This document shows positions 6,925-22,801 of a stretch of DNA of 23,232 bases, in pieces. This stretch comes from a virus. A program made the translations under genes and the position numbers. The stretch lies in the IMG/VR virus record IMGVR_UViG_3300026483_000048, positions 1 to 23,232 of that record. One strand, given 5' to 3'. Numbering within the stretch: the first letter of the stretch is position 1; each line of letters begins with the position of its first letter. The notes below the pieces were generated by a model. The model did no database searches. It was not told where the DNA came from and saw only the letters and a list, made by a program, of their open reading frames with translations.

Positions 6925-7471
6925 ATTACCCTCAAGTGGAGCAATTTCTCTTACTGACATAAATTCAAATGTAGGAATGTCAACAACAAGAACAACTACT
7001 ATGAATGAAAATCATGTTAGAGCATTTTGTGGCAATAGAACTGATAGTAGCCAAACTTCATTAGGAGATGCTAGGGGTAGAGGAGTTACTTTTACAGGCA
7101 CTTTATCTCGTTCAGGTTATTCTTCAAGCGTTACTGTTCCAACTGTAGCTTTAAGTACATACTTTGATACAGCACAACTTACTACAGGATTCCCTCTTTA
7201 CACTACAATGAATGTTGATGTGCCACCTACATGGTGGGCATCTATTAACAACCCTAGAAACATGACCTCTACATTGGGAACTGCTAGTTCAAGGACAGGT
7301 GGTGGTACAGGTGGCTCTAAAAACTTTTACTCTGTTCAAAATTATGTTCCTAGCAGTCAATCTATTACAGGTAGTGGTTACTATAGTGGAAGTGGCACAA
7401 GTAATCCTAATGGGCAAGTAACATTACAATACATTAGTTTAATTGCAACAGGTACAGGAAGTGGCTCTTAA
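6914..7471 (+). CDS. Putative tail appendage protein
   Basis: 185 residues from ATG 6914, preceded by GGAG at 6903-6906 with a 7-nt spacer; an upstream in-frame TTG (6908) is a poorer start. The N-terminal MAGRLPSSGAISLTDINSNV is typical of small marine phage virion proteins ('LPSSGPISMSDINTELG'). A short RAFCG.R and later a Gly/Ser/Thr-rich segment with no charges follow (GTLSRSGYSSSVTVP; SQSITGSGYYSGSG). It is probably a minor structural protein of the tail. There are no enzymatic motifs. Next gene starts 14 nt downstream. Confidence 0.65.
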   Translation: MAGRLPSSGAISLTDINSNVGMSTTRTTTMNENHVRAFCGNRTDSSQTSLGDARGRGVTFTGTLSRSGYSSSVTVPTVALSTYFDTAQLTTGFPLYTTMNVDVPPTWWASINNPRNMTSTLGTASSRTGGGTGGSKNFYSVQNYVPSSQSITGSGYYSGSGTSNPNGQVTLQYISLIATGTGSGS

Positions 7472-7485
7472 ATAGGGATTAATAA

Positions 7486-8922
7486 ATGACAACAAAAAGA
7501 TTACAATTTACAGACTGGTTACCAGACCAACCTGCAAACGCAGGTAGTTTAAATGATGCAAAAAATGTATATCCTTTGGGTATTGGTTATGGTGCTTTTC
7601 CTAGTGCAGAAGATTTTTCTAACGCTGCCAGTGAAAATATTAACAATATATTTGTAGCTAAATTTGGAGCTAATGTAGAAGTATTTGCAGGTGGTGCTAC
7701 AAAGTTATTTAAACTAAATATTGCAACACTTGCATTAGCAGATGTATCTAAATCAGGTGGGTATGGTGGAAATGGCACTTGGAGATTTGAGCAATTTGGC
7801 AATGTAGTTTTAGCTTGTAACGACAATTCTAAAATACAAGCATGGACAATAGGTGTTTCTTCTGCATTTGCAGATGTAGCAGCAGCAGCTCCTGTAGCTA
7901 AAGACATTGCTGTAGTTCGTGATTTTGTTTTTTCAGGAAATATTGCAGCAGGTTCTAACCCTGATAAAGTGCAATGGTCAGATATTAATGATGAAACAGA
8001 TTGGACTTCTGGAGCTACAAGCCAAAGTGATTATCAAATAATTCCTGATGGTGGTAATGTTCAAGCAATAACAGGTGGTGAGTTTGGTGTTGTATTATTA
8101 GAAAAATCTATAGTTAGAGCTTCTTATGTTGGCTCACCATTATTCTTTCAATTTGATACTATTTCTAGTGGACTAGGTTGTTTAGAGGGTAACTCTGTTG
8201 CTAGGTACGGAAACATAACTTTCTTTTTGTCAGATGATGGTTGGTATTCTACAGATGGGCAAACAGTAACAAACATAGGATTAGAAAAAGTAGATAGATT
8301 TTTCTTTGATAATGCTGACTTAACAAAAATAGATACAATTAGTGCAGCAGTTGACCCAGTTAAAAATCTTGTAGTATGGAATTATGCAGATGTAGATGGA
8401 AACAGAAAAATACTTATTTATAATTGGCAGTTAGGAAAATGGTCAAGAGCTGAAACCACATCAGATGTTGTAGGCACTATTGCTACTTTAGGAGAGACAT
8501 TAGAAACTTTAGTAAGTAGTTTAGGTTATACAGATATAGATGAGATGAAAGCATCATTAGATTCACGATTGTTTATAGGTGGTAAATTTTTATTTGCAGG
8601 TGCTAAAGGCACTAAAATAGTAACCTTTACAGGAACATCTATAACACCTCAACTTATTACAACAGATGTTGAGATTGGCTATAACTCTGTAGCTACATTA
8701 GCAAGACCACAGATAGATAATGGCACAGCACAAGTAGCTGTAGCTAGTCGCAGAGAGTTAGATGATACTATTGGATTTAGTGCGTTTGTTCCTGCTACAT
8801 CAGAGGGTAGATGTAATTTAAGAAGTGCAGGTAGGTATCATAGATTCAATGTGCAACCTACAGGTAACTGGACAACTGCTATGGCAGTAGATGTAGATGT
8901 AAAACCACAAGGCAATAGATAA
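7486..8922 (+). CDS. P22 gp10-like packaged-DNA stabilization / tail hub protein
   Basis: 478 residues. The N-terminus (LQFTDWLPDQPANAGSLNDA then KNVYPLG.GYGAFPS) matches the start of podovirus proteins annotated as DNA stabilization protein or tail hub, which plug the portal after packaging. Characteristic internal marks are VQWSDINDETDW, QIIPDGGNVQAITG, GVVLLEKSIVRASYVG, FLSDDGWYSTDG and KWSRAE. The repeated four-stranded character suggests a beta-propeller body. It forms part of the head-to-tail junction in relatives (family knowledge); here this is inferred from pattern. SD is weak (AGGGAT, 11 nt upstream). It overlaps the next gene by 1 nt. Confidence 0.6.
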   Translation: MTTKRLQFTDWLPDQPANAGSLNDAKNVYPLGIGYGAFPSAEDFSNAASENINNIFVAKFGANVEVFAGGATKLFKLNIATLALADVSKSGGYGGNGTWRFEQFGNVVLACNDNSKIQAWTIGVSSAFADVAAAAPVAKDIAVVRDFVFSGNIAAGSNPDKVQWSDINDETDWTSGATSQSDYQIIPDGGNVQAITGGEFGVVLLEKSIVRASYVGSPLFFQFDTISSGLGCLEGNSVARYGNITFFLSDDGWYSTDGQTVTNIGLEKVDRFFFDNADLTKIDTISAAVDPVKNLVVWNYADVDGNRKILIYNWQLGKWSRAETTSDVVGTIATLGETLETLVSSLGYTDIDEMKASLDSRLFIGGKFLFAGAKGTKIVTFTGTSITPQLITTDVEIGYNSVATLARPQIDNGTAQVAVASRRELDDTIGFSAFVPATSEGRCNLRSAGRYHRFNVQPTGNWTTAMAVDVDVKPQGNR

Positions 8923-20681: not shown

Positions 20682-20725
20682 TGTATTTCTCCTTTCTTGT
20701 TAAAAGTTAATATACTTTACTACTG

Positions 20726-20866
20726 TTAATTTTGTTTGTCAAACTGTTTATTTAATTTATCAAAACCTTTTGATTTATAAACCTTTCCATCTTTACTTGT
20801 TGCTCTATATTCTGCACTTTTAAAAGTGCGTTTAAACTTCTTAATAAACTCATTGGCAGTTAGCAT
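20726..20866 (-). CDS. Small basic protein coupled to the helicase gene
   Basis: 46 residues: MLTANEFIKKFKRTFKSAEY then RATSKDGKVYKSKGFDKLN and KQFDKQN. Strongly basic. Its ATG lies within the last codons of the helicase gene, with SD GGAGAG 3-4 nt upstream of it. It contains the 16-bp palindrome at 20814-20829 and a GTTTAAAC at 20830-20837. A DNA- or nucleoprotein-binding role is likely from charge; family not recognised. Confidence 0.5.
   Translation of the reverse strand: MLTANEFIKKFKRTFKSAEYRATSKDGKVYKSKGFDKLNKQFDKQN
20814..20829. repeat. 16-bp perfect palindrome next to a GTTTAAAC site
   Basis: GCACTTTTAAAAGTGC is a perfect inverted repeat inside the small basic gene; the GTTTAAAC palindrome follows at once (20830-20837). 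Two abutting palindromes inside a coding region are unusual. It could be a protein-binding site or simply reflect Lys/Phe codons (FKSA). Confidence 0.5.
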
Positions 20867-21774
20867 GGTCTCTCCGAAAATCTCTGTTTAAACTTATTAA
20901 ACCAAAAAGAAAATGTCCCCTCAAACGGATGATTTCTTTGCTTCTGAACCATTAAGTATGAAGTGCAAGGGTTATCTCCCTCCTCTAATTCTCCTAACAT
21001 CTTTGCCTGTTCTATATCTTTTCTTCTATGCAAACAGATAATATTGTCTGTCAGATTTCTAATGTGGCTACTACCTAAAATGTGTGAAGCGTCAGGTATC
21101 ACTGTTTCATCTGCTAGTTTTTTAGTATGAGCAACCAAAAACACATGAATGTTAAGGTCTCTTGCAAGGCAACTAATTTTGTTAATAAACTTTTTCTGAC
21201 TTGCGTAATCATCTTCAGCAATACTATCTACTTTCATCAAACTGTCTATAACAAAAACATCACAGTCATGAACATTTTTTCCAAAGTGTAGACTTGCTAC
21301 TAAATCATCTTCAGATGTTGTCCCTTGTGCATTAAATAACCACAACTTATTTTTGTATTTTTCACAAAACTCCTCAATATGTTGGTCATAAGCTTCTCTG
21401 ATTCCTGTCTGTTGAATCATTTTTGCTATCTGAATTACAGGTCTCATCTCCATACTAGCTACTAAAACATTTGTATAGGTCATTAAGTTAAGTAATACTT
21501 GTGATAAAAAGGTAGTTTTTCCTGACCCTGAACTGCCTGTCAAGATTGTTACCTCTCCTCGCCTTACAAGAAAATTACTATCCTCGTCAGTTTTTTGAAA
21601 GCCTAAAGAAAACCCAGAGTTTTTTTCATTACGATAATAATTTTTTACATCATCTACTAAATTATCTGTCGTTTTTACTTTAAAATCTGTTTCTTCTTCA
21701 TAGAAACCACCCTCTTGCAAAGTTTTTCTGTTGATAGTCAACTGCTCTACAATGCTACCGACATCAGTTTTCAT
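20860..21774 (-). CDS. DnaB/RecA-like replicative helicase
   Basis: 304 residues. GEVTILTGSSGSGKTTFLSQ contains the Walker A motif (residues 80-88) and CDVFVIDSL at 171-179 is Walker B. FLVAHTKK and SSHIRNLTDNIICLHR follow the DnaB-type order (sensor and post-Walker segments), and KQRNHPFEG near residue 278 resembles the arginine-finger region of DnaB/Twinkle-like helicases. It lacks a DnaG-type or long N-terminal domain (only ~70 residues), so it is a short form, as in other small phages. It unwinds DNA at the fork. It overlaps the replication protein gene upstream by 4 nt. GTTTAAAC at 20886-20893. Confidence 0.9.
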   Translation of the reverse strand: MKTDVGSIVEQLTINRKTLQEGGFYEEETDFKVKTTDNLVDDVKNYYRNEKNSGFSLGFQKTDEDSNFLVRRGEVTILTGSSGSGKTTFLSQVLLNLMTYTNVLVASMEMRPVIQIAKMIQQTGIREAYDQHIEEFCEKYKNKLWLFNAQGTTSEDDLVASLHFGKNVHDCDVFVIDSLMKVDSIAEDDYASQKKFINKISCLARDLNIHVFLVAHTKKLADETVIPDASHILGSSHIRNLTDNIICLHRRKDIEQAKMLGELEEGDNPCTSYLMVQKQRNHPFEGTFSFWFNKFKQRFSERPC

Positions 21775-22364
21775 AAAGCACCTCTGATTTGTGTTGGTGA
21801 TTTAGGATTATCATTCCACCTTTCTTGATTAATAATAACTTCGGGGCTAGGATTAAAACCCTCTAACCACTCTCTCGTTTTTTTCATAGTAGCAGTCCAA
21901 GAAATAATTTTTTTTGAAATGTCATCAAGTTTTTTTGATTTCCATTTTTCTAAACAACCTTTCTTATTTACTTTTCTTTTGTCAGGTAACGACTCCCACC
22001 ATTTTTCAAAATGTTCCGCAGTGCCTTTAACAACTTCTGATTTTAAAACTGTAAGCATTGATTCTTTTTTTAAGTCTTGCTCTGTTACTTCATAGAACCA
22101 ATTTTTTGCGTTTAAACTAGCGTATATTTTTTCTAGTTTTTTCTCATCTTGTCTTAAACGAAAGGCACAAGATTTCATGTCAGGCAATACTCCATTGAAT
22201 TGCGAAGCTAAATCCCACGCTTCTCTTAAAAACAGTTTTTCTGTCTCCGACAATTCCATGTAGGTATGGTCATTGAGAATATCTCCGCCATACATTTTAT
22301 ACCACGACATTTTATTTTTATGTTTGTAGTGTTGGAACTTGTCCCAATTTTTTATTTTAAACAT
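21771..22364 (-). CDS. Replication initiator/primosomal-like protein (DUF1376-like)
   Basis: 197 residues. Residues ~20-90 (WYKMYGGDILNDHTYMELSE then FLREAWDLASQFNGVLPD) resemble the N-terminal domain of DUF1376/YdaU-type proteins. These are encoded before helicase genes in many phages and probably open the origin and load the helicase. The C-terminal half is basic and helical (KKGCLEKWKSKKLDDISKKI), with a WTATMKKTREWLEGF stretch. Start chosen because AAGGA lies ~8 nt upstream. It shares ATGA with the helicase gene. Position immediately before the helicase supports a loader or initiator. GTTTAAAC at 22110-22117 and just upstream at 22381. Confidence 0.65.
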   Translation of the reverse strand: MFKIKNWDKFQHYKHKNKMSWYKMYGGDILNDHTYMELSETEKLFLREAWDLASQFNGVLPDMKSCAFRLRQDEKKLEKIYASLNAKNWFYEVTEQDLKKESMLTVLKSEVVKGTAEHFEKWWESLPDKRKVNKKGCLEKWKSKKLDDISKKIISWTATMKKTREWLEGFNPSPEVIINQERWNDNPKSPTQIRGAL

Positions 22365-22382: not shown

Positions 22383-22550
22383 TTAAACAGATTTAGTTAA
22401 ATACTCCTGAATTTCATACTGTCTTAATTTTGGTATCTGTTGATTAATAAACCATTTTGAAACCGCTTGTCTACTGATTTGTAATTTGTCTGCAATGTCA
22501 GATTGATTCCTAAAATTTTCTAGCAGATATTCAAATGTAATTTTTTCCAT
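22383..22550 (-). CDS. Cro-like HTH transcription regulator
   Basis: 55 residues. The pattern NQSDIADKLQISRQAVSKWF is a clear helix-turn-helix: first helix SDIADKLQ, turn ISR, recognition helix QAVSKWF. The protein's size and fold type match Cro and YdaS-like regulators. SD AGGAG lies 6 nt upstream and a strong leftward promoter 25-60 nt upstream. It is the first gene of the leftward replication operon and probably controls it and the divergent rightward promoter. Its stop codon is inside a GTTTAAAC copy (22381-22388). Whether the phage is temperate cannot be told: no integrase or CI-type gene is in the window. Confidence 0.8.
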   Translation of the reverse strand: MEKITFEYLLENFRNQSDIADKLQISRQAVSKWFINQQIPKLRQYEIQEYLTKSV

Positions 22551-22574: not shown

Positions 22575-22585
22575 AGATGTCATCT
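22575..22585. promoter_or_regulatory. Candidate operator over leftward -10
   Basis: AGATG-T-CATCT is an 11-bp odd palindrome that overlaps the -10 of the leftward promoter. The ATGTCAT within it recurs at 22764-22770 over the rightward -10. Binding by the Cro-like protein would block the polymerase; this is inference. Confidence 0.35.
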
Positions 22586-22610
22586 TATGATGAACAAAAA
22601 AGATTGTCAA
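22582..22610 (-). promoter_or_regulatory. Leftward promoter of the replication operon
   Basis: On the minus strand TTGACA (22610-22605), 17-nt spacer, TAAGAT (22587-22582). The -35 is perfect and the -10 matches 4 of 6. Transcription would start near 22575, about 25 nt before the start codon of the HTH gene, with SD AGGAG in between. Confidence 0.7.
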
Positions 22611-22682
22611 GTAAAGTCTGAAATATAAACATCAGCAGACCCTATATATATTCTTTTCTAATCTTATCTTATCTGTTATAGA

Positions 22683-22726
22683 GGTTGTCTAGAACTTGTC
22701 TAGAGGTTGTCTAGAGCTTGTCTATA
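22683..22726. repeat. Four tandem 11-bp repeats (iteron-like)
   Basis: ggttgtctaga, acttgtctaga, ggttgtctaga, gcttgtctata stand head to tail without spacers (22683-22693, 22694-22704, 22705-22715, 22716-22726). The core TTGTCTAGA is exact in three copies and one base different in the fourth. The ~11-bp period puts each copy on the same face of the helix. They lie in an AT-rich stretch between the divergent promoters, 17 bp before the rightward -35. They may be iterons of a replication origin or activator sites; both are inference. Confidence 0.75.
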
Positions 22727-22743: not shown

Positions 22744-22773
22744 TTGACATTTATTTACATAGTATGTCATTAT
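22744..22773 (+). promoter_or_regulatory. Rightward promoter
   Basis: TTGACA (22744-22749), 18-nt spacer, CATTAT (22768-22773); a 17-nt spacing gives TCATTA. The -35 is perfect, the -10 matches 4 of 6. The start would be near 22780, ~20 nt before the first rightward gene, which has an AAAGGAG SD. Confidence 0.6.
22757..22767. promoter_or_regulatory. Candidate operator in rightward promoter
   Basis: ACATA-G-TATGT is an 11-bp odd palindrome in the spacer of the rightward promoter, just before the -10. ATATTTACAT-like TATTTACAT copies flank it at 22752-22760 and 22775-22783 (23 bp apart). It may be bound by the Cro-like protein or another phage regulator. Confidence 0.35.
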
Positions 22774-22801
22774 GTATTTACATTAATAAAAGGAGAGCAA
22801 A

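Follow-up and report, generated by a model that had tools for sequence, protein, structure and literature searches.

The DNA analysed here (the window) is a virus fragment of 23,232 bases that belongs to a Venkman-like phage infecting marine OM43 bacteria; its right end is 88.9% identical to Methylophilales phage Venkman (MT375522). A leftward operon encodes, in this order, a Cro-like HTH protein, a 197-aa initiator and a DnaB-like helicase; to its left lie the genes for a Sak annealing protein and a YqaJ exonuclease. The operon and the control region beside it contain the following features:

20860..21774, minus strand: DnaB-like replicative helicase, 304 aa (Pfam DnaB_C; PHROG)
21771..22364, minus strand: replication initiator, 197 aa, the proposed iteron binder (PHROG replication initiation and replication protein families; alignment of relatives)
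22383..22550, minus strand: Cro-like HTH protein, 55 aa (Pfam P22_Cro PF14549, 35.9 bits, above the curated cut-off)
22582..22610, minus strand: predicted leftward sigma-70-type promoter of the HTH-initiator-helicase operon (TTGACA, 17 bp, TAAGAT; consensus match only)
22643..22674, minus strand: putative DNA unwinding element, AGATA AGATA AGATT AGAAA AGAAT ATATATA (stability; AGATA or AGAGA repeats kept in relatives)
22672..22682, minus strand: degenerate fifth unit TCTATAACAGA, bridging the array and the AGATA repeats (spacing kept in relatives)
22683..22726, minus strand: iteron array of four 11-bp units (repeat finding, shuffle comparison, relatives)
22744..22773, plus strand: predicted rightward promoter (TTGACA, 18 bp, CATTAT; consensus match only)

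Array position between divergent promoters, ending 17 bp from the rightward -35, had been proposed in a preliminary description of this DNA. The distance is correct (TTGACA at 22744-22749) and the leftward promoter was also found by consensus match (TTGACA at 22610, TAAGAT at 22582); promoter-type consensus matches in the array region show no excess over shuffles. The rightward promoter contains a palindrome, ACATAGTATGT, and a repeated ATTTACAT (22744-22790), a possible Cro-like operator. AT-rich tandem repeats with a 21-bp period separate the helicase gene from the small gene that follows; they occupy 20722-20786 and include a promoter-like TTGACA at 20742. Venkman gp21 (7271-8185) is annotated as a DNA primase; its homologue in the window matches the DnaB_C helicase family.

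In the array, TTGTCTAGA occurs exactly at 22685-22693, 22696-22704 and 22707-22715, with no further exact copy elsewhere in the window, and a fourth unit, TTGTCTATA, differs from it by one change (22718-22726). The step between the four units is exactly 11 bp. The repeats first described as four in perfect register are therefore real, with exact steps, but the fourth copy is not identical, and the degenerate fifth unit and the AGATA/AT part had been missed. Tandem Repeats Finder gave the array the highest scores in the window (71 at period 11 and 85 at period 22), and its 11-bp self-match is 28/33, a value that none of 200 dinucleotide-shuffled versions of the full window reached (at most 25). 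On the minus strand, the units have the register TCTAGACAASS and the order TATAGACAAGC TCTAGACAACC TCTAGACAAGT TCTAGACAACC TCTATAACAGA, followed directly by TAAGATAAGATTAGAAAAGAATATATATA. The array passes without a gap into AGATAAGATAAGATTAG and then into an ATATATA tract. The 30-bp stretch at approximately 22643-22672 ranks among the least stable 0.1% of the record. In the putative unwinding region, the minus strand is rich in purines (0.70, against a mean of 0.49). The functional unit seems to extend leftward from the array into the AGATA repeats and AT tract (22643-22674).

Conserved repeats in relatives, which the preliminary description had suggested looking for, were found as a composite element in and upstream of initiator genes. 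Approximately 50 viral contigs encode the HTH protein, and we read the regions upstream of their HTH genes; the HTH-initiator-helicase module is common to the groups found in this way. The window clade (group A) and group B share the CAGATAAGATAAG in which the array ends, with invariant spacing. The spacing from array to AGATA repeats is constant in relatives, while the distance to either promoter varies, being 17-18, 42 or 53 bp to the rightward -35 and 38-79 bp to the leftward -35. An activator site at a set distance from the promoter is thus not kept among relatives.

A weight matrix of the composite element (11-bp units, fixed spacing and AGATA/AGAGA repeats), trained on intergenic copies only, located the element at 0.50-0.54 of the initiator gene in related phages. 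In-gene scores were mostly 27-49 bits, with a few weak members at 15-22, while reversed sequence gave at most 12.5; some full-length initiators (for example L069, L070 and L096) scored lower, their units visibly decayed. At a threshold of at least 20 bits, the matrix found 86 distinct places in 1.3 Mb of fetched sequence, counted as distinct sequences and not as independent lineages: 37 lie inside initiators, 29 at most 1.1 kb upstream, and the remainder are far copies or lie on contigs without an initiator. The reversed-sequence maximum in the 1.3 Mb was 9.7 bits. Orientation relative to the initiator is identical in 72 of 73 places, and the single exception looks like an opposite-strand match to a far-copy array. 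A search for the exact pattern across 2.9 million viral contigs returned 65 stretches. All belong to this phage group, and each lies in an initiator gene, at the far copy or on the upstream side of the HTH-initiator-helicase operon. Where a contig has no initiator, it aligns to the far-copy region of Venkman.

Two groups, D (L028-L041) and a freshwater group (L060-L106; initiators approximately 40-45% identical), have the element inside the gene, where it falls between the conserved N- and C-terminal parts of the initiator. The in-gene units fall in three successive frames, encoding SIQ, GLY and VYT (L028); since the same unit specifies different residues, it is the DNA that is conserved, and protein conservation does not explain it. 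Sliding-window DNA identity between groups, also considered as proof of DNA conservation, was uninformative, the best windows lying elsewhere in the gene. Initiators of phages PBR31, DC33 and others are more distant and similar mainly N-terminally; in the same linker they have three 11-bp units, with a GATATC or GCTAGC core, ahead of purine-rich repeats. A related group has 11-bp units TGATAACAACT with AGAGT-type repeats in the initiator gene (L108, 6267-6297; L111, 3720-3750), where unit sequence seems to turn over while architecture stays. Two records deserve comment. The 39-kb DC33 record (Limnohabitans phage, PQ492659; L167) is classed as Inoviridae yet carries an O-like initiator, and this class is probably a taxonomy error. 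Contig L025 has a second, divergent HTH and helicase module (36-1245; 51% and 36% identity) on the opposite strand beside the Venkman-like one, and may be chimeric.

The groups can be arranged by where the element lies. In group D and the freshwater group it is in the initiator gene. Groups C (L026, L036, L049) and B (L042-L048) have a full intergenic element plus, at 0.48-0.53 of the initiator gene, decayed 11-bp units that lack AGATA repeats. The window clade has the intergenic element only: its own initiator gene contains no convincing vestigial units (best 19/33, against 23-24 in groups B and C). This apparent natural series, from in-gene origin through intergenic element with decayed in-gene units to intergenic element only, suggests that the origin moved out of the initiator gene to an intergenic site upstream of the operon. 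It would allow tests of whether an in-gene origin must sit there and of how initiator and iterons co-evolve.

Venkman has a second element at 38120-38190, between gp71 and gp72; the latter, annotated as hypothetical, matches the terminase small subunit family phrog_309. Far copies of groups A, B and D lie in this same neighbourhood near the terminase small-subunit gene. We found no second copy within the 23,232-base window and no second array with the same units in MW202481. Within a lineage, near and far copies have the same characteristic units and 5-nt repeats, with TCTAGA accompanied by TAAGATAAG in group A, TATATAC by TAAGATAAG in group B and TATATAC by GAAGAGAAG in group D. Since the two copies change together by lineage, a common binder is suggested, that is, one protein may bind both.

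The 197-aa initiator is the likeliest candidate for this binder. It had been called DUF1376-like, a label that the Pfam search did not bear out, giving no DUF1376 or other significant match; its relatives in PHROG are replication initiation, O-like and DnaD-like proteins. The predicted structure is of moderate confidence (pLDDT 73, pTM 0.44). A structure search with this model gave no significant match to a solved structure (best E 0.45), the third and fourth of the non-significant matches being a plasmid initiator and a Rep-DNA complex, and a sequence search of solved structures gave no relevant match. We infer that the N-terminal part would read the iterons, because distant initiators similar mainly in that part still carry 11-bp units in the linker. 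The cores of several units are palindromes of 6 bp, which would suit binding by dimers; the TCTATA units are not palindromic.

Every feature of a lambda/SPP1-type iteron origin that we could assess from sequence is present: phased direct repeats, an adjacent AT- and purine-rich region, a location within the initiator gene or next to it, and a helicase gene adjoining the initiator gene. The origin reading of the preliminary description is well supported by the comparison, in which the same element lies inside relatives' initiator genes beside purine-rich, easily melted DNA. We conclude that the array is very probably the iteron part of such an origin, one that the 197-aa initiator would read and that would have left the initiator gene. 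The initiator, transcribed leftward from the adjoining operon, would bind the 11-bp units on one helix face; DNA would then open in the adjoining AGATA-repeat and ATATATA region, where the phage's DnaB-like helicase would be loaded. In relatives, the module is inside the initiator gene, in the linker that separates its two domains; in the window clade, it would have been relocated to intergenic DNA ahead of the operon. As at SPP1 oriR, the initiator would also bind the far copy near the terminase small-subunit gene. A GC-skew check was indecisive: the cumulative skew of Venkman turns near 6 kb, where transcription also changes direction. More tentatively, and with the odds against it, the AGATA/AGAGA 5-nt repeats could be a second code, read on single-stranded DNA by a DnaA-unrelated initiator as DnaA reads DnaA-trios, in a two-part module able to leave the initiator gene and work elsewhere, both copies co-evolving. 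A literature search returned no described origin for Venkman-like phages; the present element is a sequence-defined candidate for this abundant, little-studied marine group.

The array could instead be an operator or activator array, through which a transcription factor such as the 55-aa Cro-like protein controls the divergent promoters. Its place between two predicted promoters, its helical phasing, which fits an activator, and the adjacent Cro-like gene agree with this. However, tblastn at E up to 1e-3 detected no HTH homologue on the loci of 31 of the 37 distinct in-gene copies, copies inside initiator genes are not beside a promoter, the far copies are near terminase genes, and a direct-repeat array joined to AGATA repeats would be unexpected of a Cro operator. 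The activator sites offered as an alternative in the preliminary description are disfavoured because the promoter distance, notably that to the rightward -35, varies and because the element is within a gene in many relatives; we consider regulation by such a factor improbable. More plausible, though still doubtful, is an origin through which the bound initiator would in addition control its own operon or the rightward promoter. Iteron plasmids commonly autoregulate via their initiators, and in the window clade the array is close to a predicted -35, but promoter spacing among relatives is variable. Such a dual role adds to the origin reading and does not replace it.

Because the far copy adjoins the terminase small-subunit gene, we also considered a packaging or recombination site, for which the shared neighbourhood of the group A, B and D far copies and the phrog_309 match speak. 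This is very improbable, as all these phages have the near copy either upstream of the initiator or, as in the 37 distinct in-gene cases, within it, and SPP1 oriR, itself an origin, is also in the late packaging-side region (PMC6316719). Short arrays easily arise in AT-rich DNA, but a functionless chance repeat has next to no probability here: the array exceeds shuffles, and its register, spacing and orientation are conserved across groups with initiators only 40-65% identical, a comparison that already contradicts this reading.

The proposed origin resembles ori-lambda, within gene O, in having an iteron array, here predicted to be initiator-bound, followed by a purine-rich A+T region (PMC7466680, PMC5043065). 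In ori-lambda this region is strand-asymmetric in purines (PMC5043065) and its single strands are bound by lambda O protein (PMC7466680). In most relatives the element is likewise in the middle of the initiator gene, and in several a cro-like gene lies alongside. In contrast to the approximately 18-19-bp inverted repeats of lambda, the units here are 11 bp in strict register, and the window clade's element is outside the initiator gene; the tie between lambda O and the 197-aa initiator consists of the PHROG O-like labels on its relatives. Iteron plasmids (P1, F, RK2) also have an A+T-rich region next to direct repeats in helical phase (PMC5043065), but here a phage initiator and helicase are present, and in relatives the origin would be within the initiator gene. 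DnaA-trio/BUS bacterial origins likewise place short one-strand repeats directly after double-strand binding sites, a resemblance only, and the repeats here are 5-nt AGATA or AGAGA rather than trinucleotides.

The comparison with SPP1 and G38P is one of origin layout. SPP1 has two origin copies, oriL and oriR, each with direct repeats and an AT-rich unwinding element, as is predicted here, oriL being inside initiator gene 38, as is one copy in our relatives, and oriR in an intergenic late region; one protein binds both (PMC6316719). SPP1 infects another host group, its origins are approximately 13 kb apart, compared with approximately 6.9 kb between copies in group A and 2.8-5 kb in groups B and D, and the window clade has both copies intergenic. 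While the lambda/SPP1-type iteron origin is already known, an origin of this type outside the initiator gene would be new.
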